Source: an uncultured Oscillospiraceae bacterium (GTDB lineage Bacteria; Bacillota; Clostridia; Oscillospirales; Oscillospiraceae). Taken from it: DNA of 64,000 nt. The notes beneath the pieces were generated by a model that was given only the letters and a program-made list of their open reading frames with translations, was not told where the DNA came from and searched no databases. The stretch covers positions 1-64,000 of the forward strand of contig CANQMO010000010.1 of NCBI GenBank assembly GCA_947624985.1, in the 5' to 3' direction. This document shows positions 9,022 to 54,595 of the stretch, piece by piece. Made by a program: the position numbers and the translations under genes. Numbering within the stretch: position 1 is the stretch's first letter; each line of letters begins with the position of its first letter.

Positions 9022-9762
9022 ATGGGCGAGATGGCAGAAAAACTGAAGCTGGTCCGGCTGCCGTACGCGGCGGCGGTGATCGTAGCGGGCGGCTCCGGCA
9101 GCCGCTTCGGCGGCGATAAGCTGATGGCGGACCTGGGCGGTATGCCGGTGCTGGCCCGCACGCTGCTGGCATTTGAAAGGGCGGAGGCGGTCCGGGCCAT
9201 CGTGGTGGCCGCCAGGGCCGACGCCGTGGAGCAGGTGCAGGATCTGGGCCGGCAGTTCGGCATATCCAAGCTCACCGCCGTGACCGCCGGCGGCGTGACC
9301 CGGTCGGGGTCGTGTCTTGCCGGCGTGCTGGCCGTGCCGCCGGAGGCGGAGCTCATCGCCATCCATGACGGGGCCCGGCCGCTGGTGACGGAGGACGTGA
9401 TCACAAACGCGCTGTGGACCGCGTACCGGCACACCGCCGCGCTGCCGGCCATCCCGGTGCGGGATACGATCAAACAGGCGAAGGACGGCCTGGTGACACA
9501 CACCCCGGACCGGTCCGTCCTCTTTGCCGCGCAGACGCCCCAGTGCTTTCAGGCCGACCTGATCCGGGCGGCCCTGCTGGACGCGGCGGAAAACGCTCCG
9601 GAGGTGACGGACGACTGTCTGGCGGTGGAGCGTATCGGCGGGCGGATATACCTGGCCAAAGGCAGCGAAGAGAACATCAAGATCACGACGCCGCTGGATC
9701 TGAAGATCGCGGAGACGATCCTGGTGGGAAGGAGCGGGTATGAGGATAGGGCACGGATATGA
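9022..9762 (+). CDS. ispD: 2-C-methyl-D-erythritol 4-phosphate cytidylyltransferase
   Basis: IspD couples CTP to methylerythritol phosphate in the non-mevalonate isoprenoid pathway. The 246-residue protein has the nucleotide-binding loop [17 protein letters not shown] near the N-terminus, the HDGARPLVT segment at about residue 115 and a C-terminal EENIKITTP motif, all typical of the family. The start at 9022 follows TTGAGGTG closely; ATG 9031 is an alternative. Its last 23 bases overlap ispF, the next cytosolic enzyme but one in the same pathway. Confidence 0.94.
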
Positions 9763-10207
9763 CGCCCACCGGCTGGTGGAAGGCCGCAGACTGGTGCTGG
9801 GCGGTGTGGAGATACCCTTTGAAAAGGGGCTTTTGGGCCACTCTGACGCGGACGTGCTGCTGCACGCGCTGGCGGACGCCCTTCTGGGCGCCGCGGCCCT
9901 GGGGGATATCGGGCACCTGTTCCCGGACAGCGACCCGGCCACCGAGGGCATCGACAGCCGCGTCATCCTGCGCGCCGCCGTGAAGGCGGTCCGGGAGGCC
10001 GGCTTTGGGATAGAGAACTGCGATGTGACCGTCATCGCCCAGCGGCCGAAGCTGGCGCCCTATCTGGACGAAATGCGCCGGAACATAGCCGACGACCTGC
10101 AAGTGGACATATCCCGCGTCAGCGTCAAAGCCACCACCGAGGAGCGCATGGGCTTCACCGGCGAGGGCGAGGGCATGAGCTGCCATGCCGTCGCGCTGCT
10201 GAAATAG
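9740..10207 (+). CDS. ispF: 2-C-methyl-D-erythritol 2,4-cyclodiphosphate synthase
   Basis: IspF cyclises the CDP-methylerythritol phosphate derivative with loss of CMP. The 155-residue protein contains the N-terminal metal ligands in GHGYDAHR, the [11 protein letters not shown] motif and the C-terminal segment [14 protein letters not shown], all family hallmarks. It starts inside ispD and is followed after about 25 bases by a hairpin that also covers the ribosome binding site of the next gene. Confidence 0.95.
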
Positions 10208-10232
10208 GCGCGGCGGCTGTGTTGCCAATAAC

Positions 10233-10284
10233 GATCCTCCCGCATACAATGGCATGAACCATTCGCGGGAGGATCATTATTATG
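10233..10284 (+). promoter_or_regulatory. Hairpin covering the ribosome binding site, with a sporulation-type -10 box in its loop
   Basis: An 11-base perfect inverted repeat (GATCCTCCCGC 10233-10243; GCGGGAGGATC 10265-10275) contains the GGGAGG ribosome binding site of the downstream gene in its 3' arm. An inner repeat AATGG/CCATT (10248-10252/10259-10263) lengthens the stem. The loop region carries CATACAAT (10243-10250), which fits the sigma-E -10 consensus; no convincing -35 is seen. The stem is followed by ATTATTATG, so it could also work as a weak terminator for ispF. A shorter relative sits at 27911-27954. Confidence 0.6.
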
Positions 10285-10530
10285 CACTATCTGCTGACAT
10301 TCCGAAGCCTGACCTATGCCCAGCGCGCGGCGCGGGTCCTGGAGCGGGCGGGCATTACGGGAACGGTCTCCCGTGTACCGAAGGCAGCGGCCACGAAGGG
10401 CTGCGCATACTGCGTCATCGTAGCCGCGCGGCATAAGGAGACGGCGGTCAGCATACTGAATATGGCGGGCTTTTCGCCGGAGCGGACGCTTCTGCGCAAC
10501 GCGGACGGAACTGTGGAGGCGGAGAAATGA
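10282..10530 (+). CDS. DUF3343 putative Se/S-carrier-like small protein
   Basis: This 82-residue protein begins MHYLLTFRSLTYAQRAARVL and has a central KGCAYCV motif with two cysteines. This layout matches DUF3343, annotated as putative Se/S carrier-like. It overlaps the following cysteine desulfurase-like gene by 4 bases, so the two are probably made together; a role in handing sulfur or selenium from that enzyme to an acceptor is inference. Its ribosome binding site lies in a strong hairpin. Confidence 0.75.
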   Translation: MHYLLTFRSLTYAQRAARVLERAGITGTVSRVPKAAATKGCAYCVIVAARHKETAVSILNMAGFSPERTLLRNADGTVEAEK

Positions 10531-11645
10531 TCTATCTGGACAGCGCCGCCACTTCTCTGCAAAAACCGGCCGCCGTCCGCTATGCCGTAGCGGAGGCCAT
10601 GCGCACCATGTCCAGTCCTGGACGCGGCGGCTATGAAAGCGCCATGCTGGCCGCCGACACGGTACTGGACTGCCGCAGCGCGCTGGCGGATCTGCTGTGC
10701 GTGCGCGACCTGGAGCAGGTGGTATTCACCTCCAGCGCCACCCACGGCCTCAACATCGCCATCCGAAGCCTTGTAAAGCCGGGGGACAAAGTGGTCATCT
10801 CGGGCTATGAGCATAACGCCGTGTGGCGGCCTCTGTGGGGGATCGGCGCGGATATCCACGTGGCCGCCTCGCCGCTGTTCGACCCGGACGCCGCTGTGGC
10901 AGCCTTTCAGAGGGAACTGCCCGGCGCGAAGGCCGCCGTCTGCTGTCAGGTGTCCAACGTGTTCGGCTATATCCTGCCGGTGGAGCGTATCGCGGCCCTG
11001 TGCCGGGCCGCGGGCGTGCCGCTGATCGTGGACGCCTCTCAGGGCGCGGGCAGCGTGGGACTGGATTTTGAGAACCTGGGCTGCGCCTTTGCCGCCATGC
11101 CGGGCCACAAGGGCCTTCTCGGCCCGCAGGGGACTGGCGTGCTCCTGTGCAGGTCGCCGGACGTGACGCCGCTGTTTTACGGCGGCACGGGCTCCCAGAG
11201 CCAGGACGCCGCCATGCCGGACTTTCTGCCGGACCGGCTGGAACCGGGCACCCACAATGTGCCGGGTATCGCCGGACTGCTGGAGGGGGTGCGCTGGCTG
11301 CAAAAAAGGACCTGCGCCGCTGTGCTGGACCACGAGAGAGAGCTCCTGGCGGCGTTTTCCCGGCGGCTGGACGGCGTGGAGCGGGTGCGCAAGTTCATTG
11401 CCCCGGACCCCGCCGTGCAGACGGGCGTCCTGTCCGTACAGATAGACGGCCTCGACTGTGAGGAGGCGGCCAGACTGCTGGCGGAACGGGGGGTGGCCGT
11501 GCGGGCGGGCCTGCACTGCGCGCCCCTGGCGCACACCACGGCCGGCACCATCGACGAGGGCACCGTGCGCTTCAGTTTTTCGCCCTTCAACACCTTCGCG
11601 GAGGTCTTTGACGCGGCGGACAGCCTGCGGGATATCCTGCTTTAA
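10527..11645 (+). CDS. Cysteine desulfurase family protein (class V aminotransferase)
   Basis: The 372-residue protein is a PLP enzyme of the NifS/CsdA class, which removes sulfur or selenium from cysteine or selenocysteine. It shows the N-terminal YLDSAATS motif, the PLP lysine in MPGHKGLLGPQGTG, a GTHNVPGI segment and the active-site cysteine in AGLHCAPLAH near residue 332. It most resembles the family TIGR01977, which in other bacteria occurs near selenium-related genes. Pairing with a DUF3343 protein supports a sulfur/selenium-handling role over simple Fe-S cluster assembly, but the substrate is not proven. Confidence 0.85.
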   Translation: MIYLDSAATSLQKPAAVRYAVAEAMRTMSSPGRGGYESAMLAADTVLDCRSALADLLCVRDLEQVVFTSSATHGLNIAIRSLVKPGDKVVISGYEHNAVWRPLWGIGADIHVAASPLFDPDAAVAAFQRELPGAKAAVCCQVSNVFGYILPVERIAALCRAAGVPLIVDASQGAGSVGLDFENLGCAFAAMPGHKGLLGPQGTGVLLCRSPDVTPLFYGGTGSQSQDAAMPDFLPDRLEPGTHNVPGIAGLLEGVRWLQKRTCAAVLDHERELLAAFSRRLDGVERVRKFIAPDPAVQTGVLSVQIDGLDCEEAARLLAERGVAVRAGLHCAPLAHTTAGTIDEGTVRFSFSPFNTFAEVFDAADSLRDILL

Positions 11646-27910: not shown

Positions 27911-27954
27911 ACCGCCTTTCGCCCATACAATGGACGGGAGGCGGTCTTATTATG
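27911..27954 (+). promoter_or_regulatory. Second hairpin with a sporulation-type -10 box and covered ribosome binding site
   Basis: ACCGCCT (27911-27917) pairs with AGGCGGT (27939-27945), and CCC/GGG (27922-27924/27936-27938) extends the stem past a 4-base bulge. The GGGAGG ribosome binding site (27936-27941) lies in the 3' arm and CATACAAT (27924-27931) in the loop. The core CATACAATGG and the downstream TTATTATGC are identical to those of the element at 10233-10284. The -35 is unclear: TCATAAC (27900-27906) is 17 bases away, longer than usual for sigma-E. Confidence 0.55.
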
Positions 27955-28107: not shown

Positions 28108-28135
28108 CATATCCGGCGCCGCGCCGGCATATCCT
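28106..28135 (+). promoter_or_regulatory. Sigma-E-like promoter of the SipL-like gene
   Basis: GACATATC (28106-28113) and CATATCCT (28128-28135) are separated by exactly 14 bases. The -35 is close to the sigma-E form GTCATATT and the -10 to CATACAnT. In C. difficile sipL is transcribed in the mother cell under sigma-E. Confidence 0.65.
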
Positions 28136-28170
28136 TGCCTAGAAAAAATAGTGCAAGGAGCGATCAAATC

Positions 28171-29664
28171 ATGGAAACGGCTCTGAAAAAGGACGTATAC
28201 GAGCACCTGGCCACCGTATGGTCGGGGTCATTCAGCCGGGACTTCACAGCGGAGAGCATCGTGCCGGACGCCATGCCGGATGTGGCCGGTATCATCGACG
28301 CGGACGGCGTCATCACGCTTCGGAGCAAGGAGGCGGAGGCGGGCTCTGTCGCGCTGGCCGCCTCTTTGAGCGTATCGGTGCTGTACATGCCGGAAAACGG
28401 CGGCGTCATGCAGACCATGTCCGTGGCCATACCGGTGGAAATGCGCACGGACGCGCCGGGCGTTGACCAGGACTGCCAGACCGTCGCCAGGGTCCGCGTC
28501 CGCGCCATCGACGCCAGGATGGTCAACTCCCGAAAAATATCTGTCCGGGCCGATGTGGACTGCGAGGCGGCGGCTTACCAGAAGCGCAGCGTGGAGGTCG
28601 CCTCCGGGCTCGACAGCGGCGGGGACGCCATACATATCCTCACAAAAACGGTACCGGTCTCCGTGGTGGCGGACGTGCGGGAAAAGACGTTCGTGGTGAC
28701 GGACGAGTACCAGCTTCCCACCGGTATGGAGACGGTGGAGCGTATTTTGAGCCAGCGGGTAGAGGCGGCCGTGGAGGACGTCAAATATGTCAGCGGCAAG
28801 GTCGTATTCCGGGGAAGGATACGGGCCGGTCTGCTGCTCGCCGGAGCCGACGGACAGATCGGCGCCGCGCGGTATGAAACGGAGTATTCCCAGATCATGG
28901 AAGTCGCCGTGGAGGCGGAGAACGTGCTGGGCTCGGTGACGATGATGTTCACAGGCGTATATTTCGACCTGCCGGAGCGCGACAGCGACGGGCAGATCAA
29001 GGCCGAACTGCATCTTGTGGCCCAGACGGTGTGCAGGCAGTCCCGGGAGATGACCTACATCGCCGATCTTTACAGCAACCGGACAGCGCTGGCCGGTCAG
29101 ACGGAGGCGCTCTCGCTCACGGCGAGCGCCCAGCCCGTTTCCATGCGTCAGACGGTGACGGGCAGCGCGGAGCTGATGGGCGCGGCGGGGGACGTGCTCA
29201 CCGTGAGCGCAACGGTGGGGACGGTCACCACAGAGGGGGAGACAGTAAAGACGACTGTGAACGTGCGCGCCATCATCCGGCAGGACGGCGGCGGCTACAC
29301 CACGGCCCGCTGCCGCCTGTCCGGGGAGTTCACCGCCGATCTGCCTGGGGGCACGGCGTTGCAGGCCGTGAGCGTCAGCGTGACGGACGTATACAGCGGC
29401 GTCACCGGCGGCACGCTGGACGTGCGCGCCGTGCTGCAAATGGAGGCCGTGGCCGCGTCGGCCGGGAACGTCATGGTCCTGACCGGTATCGTGGAGGAGG
29501 AGCAGTCCTGCGCCGAGGCCGCGCCCTCTGTCACGCTGGTCAGGCTGGAGCCGGGGGCGGATATGTGGACGGTGGCAAAAAAATACCACTCGACGGTGGA
29601 GGCCATCTCCGCCGCCAACGGAGAGCGGCAGACGGGCCTTGTTCTGATCCCGAAGGCCAGATAG
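28171..29664 (+). CDS. sipL: SipL-like spore coat morphogenetic protein (DUF3794 repeats plus LysM)
   Basis: SipL binds SpoIVA and anchors the spore coat in Clostridia. The 497-residue protein has DUF3794 (SPOCS) repeats over roughly residues 20-430, seen as recurring blocks such as TFVVTDEYQLPTGMETVERI, and a C-terminal LysM domain (about 450-495) with DMWTVAKKYHSTVEAISAAN. This order matches SipL. No signal peptide is seen, as expected for a mother-cell protein. ATG 28171 follows AAGGAG. spoIVA is at 53065-54537. Orthology is inferred from architecture. Confidence 0.82.
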   Translation: METALKKDVYEHLATVWSGSFSRDFTAESIVPDAMPDVAGIIDADGVITLRSKEAEAGSVALAASLSVSVLYMPENGGVMQTMSVAIPVEMRTDAPGVDQDCQTVARVRVRAIDARMVNSRKISVRADVDCEAAAYQKRSVEVASGLDSGGDAIHILTKTVPVSVVADVREKTFVVTDEYQLPTGMETVERILSQRVEAAVEDVKYVSGKVVFRGRIRAGLLLAGADGQIGAARYETEYSQIMEVAVEAENVLGSVTMMFTGVYFDLPERDSDGQIKAELHLVAQTVCRQSREMTYIADLYSNRTALAGQTEALSLTASAQPVSMRQTVTGSAELMGAAGDVLTVSATVGTVTTEGETVKTTVNVRAIIRQDGGGYTTARCRLSGEFTADLPGGTALQAVSVSVTDVYSGVTGGTLDVRAVLQMEAVAASAGNVMVLTGIVEEEQSCAEAAPSVTLVRLEPGADMWTVAKKYHSTVEAISAANGERQTGLVLIPKAR

Positions 29665-30481: not shown

Positions 30482-30826
30482 TGCGAGTTTTCCGAATGGC
30501 CGCGGGCACAGGCCGAAAGGCCGTGCGTGAGGAAAGTCCGGGCTCCGCAGGGCAAGGATAACGGGTAACGCCCGCCGATGGCGACATCAGGACGAGTGCA
30601 ACAGAAACAGACCGCCGTAGTAACGGTAAGGGTGGAAAGGCGGTGTAAGAGACCACCCGGCGCTCTGGCGACAGTGCGCTGCTGTAAACTCTATCCGGAG
30701 CAACACCGTGGAGGGGGAATGGACCGGCCCGGTCCCCCCGGGGAGGTGGCTGGAGCGCGACGGCAACGTCACGCCTAGATAGATGGCCATTTTTAACAGA
30801 ATCCGGCTTACAGGAAGACTCGTTTA
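30482..30826 (+). ncRNA. rnpB: RNase P RNA, bacterial type A
   Basis: This is the catalytic RNA that trims the 5' ends of tRNA precursors. Signature segments appear in order: GAGGAAAGTCCGGGCTCC, AGAGACCACC, GGAGGTGGCTGGAG (L15, which contacts the tRNA CCA end) and ACAGAATCCGGCTTACAGG. The ends pair as helix P1, CGAGTTTTCC (30484-30493) with GGAAGACTCG (30813-30822), with one G-U pair, which sets the boundaries to within a few bases. A terminator follows directly. No clear promoter lies between yebC and this gene. Confidence 0.95.
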
Positions 30827-53064: not shown

Positions 53065-54537
53065 TTATATTATAAAGCAGATGAGGCGGTTCCCGCCGTC
53101 GTTCACCAGGCGCTGGACCGTTACCCGCAGGCGGTTGCGTATATTGGGCGGCATCTGTTGCAGCTTATTGGTGAGTCCCTCCTCCGCGATGTCATAGAGG
53201 GATTTGCCGAATATATTGGACTCCCAGATACGGTTGATGTCCCCGTCAAAGCCCTGTAGCAGGAAGCTCACGATCTGCTCTGATGCCTTCTCGCCTCCTA
53301 CCGCCGGGGAGACCTCGGTCTCCACCTGGGTGCGGAAAAGATGGATGGCCGGGGCGCTGGCCTTCAGCCGCACGCTGTACTTTCCGCCCCGGCTGACGAT
53401 CTGGGGCTCCTGTAGCTCCATCTCCTCCGGGCCGGGCATGATGATCCCGTAGCCTGTCTCTCTGGCCTGGGCCAGCGCCTCGTGGACGTGATCGTACTCC
53501 GTCTTGACGCTTTTCAGTGACCGCAGAAGCTCCATCAGGTCTCCGTCGTCATGGATCTCAAAGCCGGACTGGTCGCTGATGGTCTGGTAATAGAGCGACT
53601 GCTCAAGCTCGATGACGGCCGTCGCCGTGCCGCTGCCCGCCTGGGCGGCGGAGATACGGGCGGAGCTAATAAGTTCGCTTTGCATGAGCCCTTCCACGCC
53701 GCTGTAGGCGTCCTGTAACGCGGACATGTGTTCACCCGCGTCCAGAAGCATGGAATAGAGCGTTTTTTTCAACTCGCTGTCCTCCGGCAGGGCTTCCGCC
53801 CAGGCGGGCAGCCACAGGGAGAGCTCGTTGATGGGAAACTGGAACAGGACCGCTTTCATCACCGCGTTGACGTCCTCCGCCGACAGCTCCTGGCAGTTGA
53901 CGGGCAGGCACGGCACCCGGTACTGCTCGGAGATCTGTGCCGCCAGAGCGCCTGCGGCGGCCCCACAGGGTTCCGCGCTGTTGACGACCACGGCAAAGGG
54001 CTTGCCGATATCCTGCAGCTCCCGTATGACGCGCTCCTCCGCCGCCAGGTAGTTTTCCCGGGGAATATCCCCAAAGCTACCGTCGGTGGTGATCACAAGG
54101 CCGATGGTGGAGTGCTCCGCGATGACCTTTCTTGTCCCCTCTTCCGCCGCCTGAGTCATCGGTATCTCATGGTCATACCAGGGGGTGGTGACCATCCGTT
54201 CCACGCCGTCCTCGTACAGTCCCTCAGCCCCCGGCACGATGTACCCCACGCAGTCGATGAGCCGCACAGAGGCGGAGGCGTCCGTCCCCAGAGAGATGTC
54301 CACCGCCTCCTCCGGGACGAATTTGGGTTCGGCGGTCATGATGGTGCGGCCTGAGCCGGACTGGGGCAACTCGTCGCGGGCGCGTTCCTTCCTGTACACA
54401 TTTTCGATGTTGGGAATGACCTGTATCTCCATGAAACGCTTGATGAAGGTCGATTTTCCCGTCCGCACCGGCCCGACGACGCCCAGATAGATGTCGCCGT
54501 CCGTCCTGCGGGCAATATCTTCATAGATGCTGTCCAC
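53065..54537 (-). CDS. spoIVA: Spore coat morphogenetic ATPase SpoIVA
   Basis: SpoIVA polymerises with ATP on the forespore surface and forms the base of the coat. The 490-residue protein has the conserved opening DIARRTDGDIYLGVVGPVR with Walker A GPVRTGKST (about residues 22-30), the switch-like DCVGYIVPGA and TTDGS segments, a coiled-coil-rich middle and the short C-terminus ending ICFII that docks to the membrane. GTG 54537 follows GGAGGG and gives the usual length (492 in Bacillus). A sigma-E-like promoter precedes it. Confidence 0.97.
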   Translation of the reverse strand: MDSIYEDIARRTDGDIYLGVVGPVRTGKSTFIKRFMEIQVIPNIENVYRKERARDELPQSGSGRTIMTAEPKFVPEEAVDISLGTDASASVRLIDCVGYIVPGAEGLYEDGVERMVTTPWYDHEIPMTQAAEEGTRKVIAEHSTIGLVITTDGSFGDIPRENYLAAEERVIRELQDIGKPFAVVVNSAEPCGAAAGALAAQISEQYRVPCLPVNCQELSAEDVNAVMKAVLFQFPINELSLWLPAWAEALPEDSELKKTLYSMLLDAGEHMSALQDAYSGVEGLMQSELISSARISAAQAGSGTATAVIELEQSLYYQTISDQSGFEIHDDGDLMELLRSLKSVKTEYDHVHEALAQARETGYGIIMPGPEEMELQEPQIVSRGGKYSVRLKASAPAIHLFRTQVETEVSPAVGGEKASEQIVSFLLQGFDGDINRIWESNIFGKSLYDIAEEGLTNKLQQMPPNIRNRLRVTVQRLVNDGGNRLICFII

Positions 54538-54565
54538 AAAAATCCCTCCAAGGCATGTTTGGTTA

Positions 54566-54595
54566 AACATACGCCCGGGAGGGATCATTTATGAC
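54566..54595 (-). promoter_or_regulatory. Sigma-E-like promoter of spoIVA
   Basis: On the minus strand GTCATAAA (complement of 54588-54595) matches the sigma-E -35 well and CGTATGTT (complement of 54566-54573) lies 14 bases on as a weaker -10. The -35 overlaps the stop codon of the upstream gene. A palindrome, ATGTTTGGTTAAACAT (54555-54570), overlaps the -10. Confidence 0.6.

Follow-up and report, generated by a model that had tools for sequence, protein, structure and literature searches.

Candidate hairpins that enclose sporulation promoters and would hide ribosome binding sites upstream of mother-cell genes in uncultured Oscillospiraceae

Introduction

Sporulation genes can sit immediately downstream of housekeeping genes, from which leaky read-through could yield spore proteins in growing cells. 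How a gene in this position might be kept silent is the question raised by a short intergenic region in the 64,000-nt stretch of an uncultured Oscillospiraceae genome analysed here (the window). In this region, a -10 box of the mother-cell sigma type lies at the edge of a hairpin whose opposite arm contains the ribosome binding site (Shine–Dalgarno sequence, SD) of the next gene. We present evidence that, in uncultured gut bacteria that form spores, several sporulation genes located behind everyday genes appear to be silenced by a hairpin that hides the ribosome binding site. If this is true, a compact element preventing the leak at several genes would be a testable general answer to the question. 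The features of the locus are as follows.

9740–10207 (+), ispF (YgbB; PF02542, E 7.1e-70), the co-directional upstream housekeeping gene and presumed source of read-through RNA
10233–10243 (+), 5' arm (anti-SD), GATCCTCCCGC; the pairing runs out to 10227 with one mismatch
10243–10250 (+), CATACAAT, a -10 box of mother-cell sigma type where stem and loop meet, 35 nt downstream of the ispF stop codon
10256–10260 (+), predicted transcription start, 5–9 nt past the box
10265–10275 (+), 3' arm, GCGGGAGGATC, containing the ribosome binding site GGGAGG (10267–10272)
10276–10281 (+), ATTATT, the remainder of the spacer that leads from the SD to the start codon; most DUF3343 relatives have a U-tract at this place, the window copy has none
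10282–10530 (+), the putatively gated gene, encoding an 82-aa Se_S_carrier (DUF3343) protein (PF11823, E 5.8e-14)
10527–11645 (+), downstream partner gene, encoding a class-V aminotransferase resembling cysteine desulfurase or Sec lyase (PF00266)

The product of the partner gene matches TIGR01977 with an E-value of 1.4e-101 and 340 bits, under the cut-off of 377. Passages of PMC5322559 tie DUF3343 to selenium or sulfur handling through genome context.

Results

A stable hairpin buries the ribosome binding site of the DUF3343 gene

The region between ispF and the 82-aa gene holds an inverted repeat with two 17-nt arms (10227–10243 and 10265–10281) that are 94% complementary, with one mismatch. 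Its inner stem (10233–10243 with 10265–10275) is a perfect 11-bp helix that encloses GGGAGG, with 9 nt to the ATG at 10282, and the first-pass annotation had described this stem and its coordinates correctly. The annotation had also placed the box at the loop. The position (10243–10250) is right, but the box straddles the stem–loop border rather than lying wholly in the loop, with its first C forming the end of the 5' arm. The RNA of this region is predicted to fold with -31.7 kcal/mol (z -4.22), and none of 200 shuffled sequences was equally stable. When the whole window was scanned against Rfam, no match at gathering score was found at the hairpin site. The relaxed matches there belong to microRNA families (best E 0.0039, with 26 bits where the cut-off is 104) and were taken as chance. 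In the whole window, the gathering score was reached solely by a class A RNase P RNA at 30484–30826 (+).

The stem and the box are conserved upstream of DUF3343 genes

One search found the DUF3343 protein in 49 of 60 genomes, the bacterium's own genome included. Our named collection consists of 33 DUF3343 loci, 32 of them titled Oscillospiraceae and one Ruminococcaceae. A hairpin with a CATANNNT box exists upstream of the DUF3343 orthologue in 31 of these relatives, and the exceptions, in which no hairpin with a box was found upstream of the gene, are the least similar of the 33, L092 and L093. The window and the 31 relatives make up the 32 copies considered below. Eight core pairs, formed between CCTCC[CT]GC and GCGGGAGG, are each present in 29–32 of the 32 copies. 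As judged from the aligned sequences, the stem is conserved, with covariation in its outer pairs; the core barely varies, so the covariation signal is that of the flanking pairs. Among 26 distinct rows, and with shuffles that take no account of relatedness among the rows, we counted 14 Watson–Crick pairs at offset -3 against 6.5 after shuffling (p 0.001, all four types being seen), 12 against 5.7 at offset -4 (p 0.004) and 9 against 5.9 at offset -5 (p 0.05). Two relatives stand out in their layout. L084 (about 1899–1981) has about 64 extra AT-rich nucleotides in the hairpin loop, with the arms and the box intact. In L080 (about 1887–1937), the hairpin is shifted upstream by about 66 nt relative to the aligned ATG, and the true start codon may also lie upstream.

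The layout recurs in the genome and before other sporulation genes

We scanned the bacterium's own genome for SD-pairing stems, defined as at least 8 bp with at least 5 G-C pairs and a 5' arm at or before the box. Such a stem is present at 6 of the 33 sites of the form CATANNNT...GGAGG...ATG, as compared with 0.52 expected from shuffled upstream letters, and at none of the 42 TATAAT...GGAGG...ATG control sites (0.07 expected). These sets represent 33 of 34 box sites, one of two boxes with a common ATG being dropped, and 42 of 44 controls, two duplicates being dropped. A genome scan for the box within a hairpin overlapping a ribosome binding site had been proposed in the first-pass annotation, and the stems found are more frequent than chance would give. 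One of the six sites (C36:1746) was left out of the gates, as we call these elements, for its low pairing probability. The genome holds 24 copies of CATACAAT, and five of them, including that at 27924, lie next to a hairpin and immediately ahead of a start codon. The SD is able to pair with an arm before the box at four of these five sites, one of which (on C3) pairs weakly through a 6-bp stem; at the fifth, L050, the hairpin is downstream of the box. Among the 64 window genes with an SD, six have strong SD stems: two gates (DUF3343 and spoIVA), one case of the same palindrome on the opposite strand and three stems without a box. This gene scan missed the SipL site described below because an alternative start codon had been chosen.

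Gate-like sites were also seen before an EPSP-synthase-family (MurA-like) gene (G000:C22:17015–17066, minus strand) and before a gene with a weak, below-cut-off glycosyltransferase match (G000:C29:8694–8722, minus strand). No Pfam name was obtained for the 51-aa and 72-aa gate genes. In G011, many copies of the palindrome CCTCCCCTTRCACAGGGGAGGC, a repeat family, are found on many contigs among the matches listed.

Two further gates are located in the window.

27911–27954 (+), second gate: arms 27911–27921 and 27935–27945, box CATACAAT at 27924–27931, ATG at 27952
54535–54592 (-), third gate, before spoIVA: -35 ATA at 54592–54590, arms 54586–54578 and 54549–54541, box CGTATGTT at 54573–54566, GTG start codon at 54537

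The second gate precedes a 51-aa gene, which is followed by a SipL/SPOCS-domain gene (28135–29664), and its box lies 18 nt past the rsgA stop codon. The SipL-domain protein is found in 33 of 35 genomes of the genus. We fetched 30 of these loci, and 29 contain the box together with unbroken stems of 9–18 bp; locus L317 ends too close to the gene to show the upstream region. In an alignment of 22 rows in one register (21 distinct), 88.1% of the pair cells are standard pairs, as compared with 45–62% when the arms are slid. The covariation score was reached by 6 of 500 shuffles. Pairs with changes on both sides are no more numerous than chance would give (4 versus 3.3), their count being matched by 192 of 500 shuffles. 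In 25 of 29 SipL loci, as in the second gate of the window, the SD starts 4 nt after the box, so that any transcription start further than 5 nt from the box would cut into the SD. For the SipL SD to survive, transcription would have to begin very near the box.

At the third gate, a 9-bp outer stem hides GGAGG, with CGTATGTT between the arms, and the box is 15 nt past the stop codon of a NIF3-family gene. Upstream of yabP (TIGR02892, over cut-off), we found a near-palindrome of the form CCTCCCATA...ATGGGAGG. Elsewhere in the order, 70 yabP loci were fetched and 66 parsed; 10 of the 66 are gated, in 8 of 21 families, versus 2.4 expected after shuffling, and the other 56, all outside the genus, fail the gate criterion. 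A gene for a 165-aa protein, weakly similar to DUF2383, has gates with differing stems in nine genomes, which had been pre-picked by pattern and whose orthology was judged by eye. The DUF2383 match is weak and below cut-off, with the profile run on L281 alone. The SD of these DUF2383-like copies is similarly close to the box. Thus, the same layout with unrelated stem letters appears, by its sequence pattern, before spoIVA, the SipL-domain operon, yabP and the weakly DUF2383-like gene.

The SD is predicted to be buried in long RNA and freed in short RNA

We calculated the energy needed to open the SD in a long read-through RNA and in a short RNA beginning past the 5' arm, taking the SD as 6 nt for the DUF3343 copies (window included) and SipL and as 5 nt for spoIVA, yabP and the controls. 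For the window, the value is 22.4 kcal/mol in the long RNA versus 6.0 kcal/mol in RNA started 5–9 nt past the box, and a weak fold over the SD is kept in the short form. The median values for the DUF3343 relatives are 13.4 and 7.0 kcal/mol (n=28; L068, L080 and L084 of the 31 were left out for their altered geometry), with no long/short contrast by folding in two of them, L073 and L086. For spoIVA, the medians are 15.1 and 1.8 kcal/mol (n=11), and for yabP 15.7 and 3.3 kcal/mol (n=13, from 17 rows). SipL shows 15.0 versus 1.7 kcal/mol (n=29) when the RNA start is set at the SD. In contrast, the 42 TATAAT controls from the same genome show no change (3.4 versus 3.1 kcal/mol). In these folding models, the SD is predicted to be sequestered in the long RNA.

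The best explanation for these observations is probably a self-excluding promoter gate. RNA reading through from ispF would carry both arms, and its GC-rich hairpin would bury the SD; in many relatives, transcription could also stop at a U-tract between the SD and the start codon. In the sporulating cell, the -35/-10 pair, of which the -10 box lies between the arms, would be used by a mother-cell sigma factor of the E or K type. RNA begun at this nested promoter would lack the 5' arm (10233–10243) and could form no such hairpin, and the gene would be translated. We infer that read-through RNA is either ended at the stem or else untranslatable, and that RNA begun inside the element is exempt from both. 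The first-pass annotation had proposed such a gate on translation; the conserved stem and box, the SD predicted to be buried only in long RNA and the recurrence of the layout support it well through both comparison and folding.

A U-tract follows the stem in many copies

A T-run of at least four is present in the spacer between SD and start codon in 25 of 31 DUF3343 loci, 15 of 28 SipL loci, 6 of 11 spoIVA loci and 7 of 10 DUF2383-like loci. In two sets of control spacers, it is found in 1 of 42 and 1 of 26. On the face of their sequences, many copies are built like an intrinsic terminator in which the SD forms the 3' arm. The window spacer has no T-run of at least four, and a terminator scan with a loop limit of 8 called none at the window site. 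The first-pass annotation had suggested that read-through RNA might alternatively be terminated, and this part of its proposal fits the relatives with a U-tract after the stem but not the window copy. Since the window copy combines a longer stem with the lack of a T-run, the translation block should dominate there.

The element might instead be an insulator working by termination only, that is, an ispF terminator that also carries the promoter and SD of the next gene, with the hiding of the SD having no separate role. The GC-rich stem followed by a T-run in most DUF3343 spacers and the location just past the upstream stop codon are as such an insulator would have them. However, a T-run of four is missing from the window copy and from roughly half of the SipL and spoIVA copies, yet the stem persists, and the feature that stays constant across genes is the SD in the 3' arm. 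We thus regard termination as the only role as unlikely.

The box resembles a mother-cell promoter

Over the 32 DUF3343 copies, the box reads CATACAAT in 28, CATAAGAT in two, CATACACT in one and CATAAAAT in one, with CATA and the final T invariant in 32 of 32 and the middle of the box variable. The layout AC-N17/18-C[AG]TANNNT was found in 30 of 32 DUF3343 copies and in all 29 SipL copies. The window copy is one of the two DUF3343 exceptions, with a -10 box and no AC at N17/18. The layout ATA-N16-C[AG]TANNNT was found in 11 of 11 spoIVA copies and in 16 of 16 parsed yabP copies of the genus (16 of the 17 rows given were used, rows that were unparsed or on the wrong strand being left out), and ATA at N16 or N17 precedes the box in all six parsed copies of spoIIIAA, a mother-cell gene. 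An ATA -35 element marks sigma E promoters and an AC element marks sigma K promoters. With this familiar consensus, calibrated on spoIVA, yabP and spoIIIAA, the copy family has a CATANNNT-like -10 box with an ATA or AC -35 element at fixed spacing. The constant CATA and last T, maintained while the middle of the box varies, together with the kept distance to the -35 element, support the reading that the box behaves as a promoter. The genome encodes two sporulation-type sigma factors of the sigE/sigK type, with 274 and 252 bits against the cut-off of 299 for the sigK model; despite these below-cut-off scores, we take them as the sigE/sigK pair.

In the window copy, a sigma-A-like TTGCCA-N17-TACAAT, matching the consensus at 10 of 12 positions in a scan that covered the window, overlaps the same -10 box. 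A vegetative sigma-A promoter combined with a hairpin at the ribosome binding site would be the same gate, open in growing cells. However, 30 of the 32 copies have AC at N17/18 instead, CATA is kept in all of them although the third position of the hexamer is variable, and the class of box is common to spoIVA and yabP. A sigma-A promoter is thus quite improbable.

A point against the gate comes from spoIIIAA, in which the promoter is present but the SD is unburied, at 3.4 versus 0.4 kcal/mol (n=6). In L401, L394, L396 and other spoIIIAA loci, the CATAGACT box is flanked by an inverted repeat (GGGACA/TGTCCC, for example), with the SD outside. The repeats of the candidate gates could be read as an operator in the DNA, overlapping the -10 box and bound by a dimeric regulator, as the perfect or near-perfect dyads around the box and the spoIIIAA dyad, which excludes the SD, would allow. 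The letters, the length and the distance of the dyad from the box vary by gene and species, however, and what stays is the pairing with the SD, making an operator very improbable. A ligand- or protein-sensing, riboswitch-like leader controlling DUF3343 would suit a stable, conserved hairpin before a gene family of selenium or sulfur context, but it is hardly credible given that the site has no gathering-score Rfam match, that the relaxed microRNA matches are far under their cut-offs and that the conserved unpaired letters are promoter letters common to unrelated genes.

Discussion

Returning to the self-excluding promoter gate, we lean slightly towards a broader view in which it forms part of a developmental insulation code. 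Mother-cell genes behind housekeeping genes, throughout the genus and for yabP in several families, would carry a composite element of about 50 bp in which a terminator-like stem, a ribosome binding site and a sporulation promoter overlap, and only RNA born inside the element would be finished and translated. If so, the element would mark new mother-cell genes, for example DUF3343 and its cysteine-desulfurase partner. It would also provide a sequence signature for mother-cell genes in uncultured Clostridia and a design for insulated promoters.

We found no report of the element in sporulation genes of Clostridia in the literature searched, which covered few subscription journals. The principle is already known from T4 gene e and I-TevI and from sigG of Bacillus subtilis. 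In sections of PMC2988022 and PMC3014915, a hairpin at the ribosome binding site with a late promoter around the 5' arm is described for T4 gene e, soc, 49, I-TevI/II/III and segB and for Aeh1 mobE, and a 100-fold effect of this device is cited for gene e. As is predicted for the putative gates, the long read-through RNA there hides the ribosome binding site, and the RNA from the stage-specific promoter is without the 5' strand. The T4 elements separate time classes of a phage, whereas the candidate gates concern several genes of a cellular sporulation programme, and no fusion with a U-tract is described in those sections. The precedent of sigG, named in the first-pass annotation, is real: according to parts of PMC5942855, a hairpin of 20 or more bp is proposed to block translation of the spoIIGA-sigE read-through RNA and cannot form in RNA from the gene's own promoter, PsigG. 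That case concerns a single gene of the forespore, driven by a sigma F/G promoter, whereas here the boxes are of the mother-cell type, the stems are shorter, and several genes are involved in another bacterial order. The new aspects are that the layout recurs at several mother-cell genes, that it is reused with stems of unrelated sequence and that it is often fused with a terminator-like tract.
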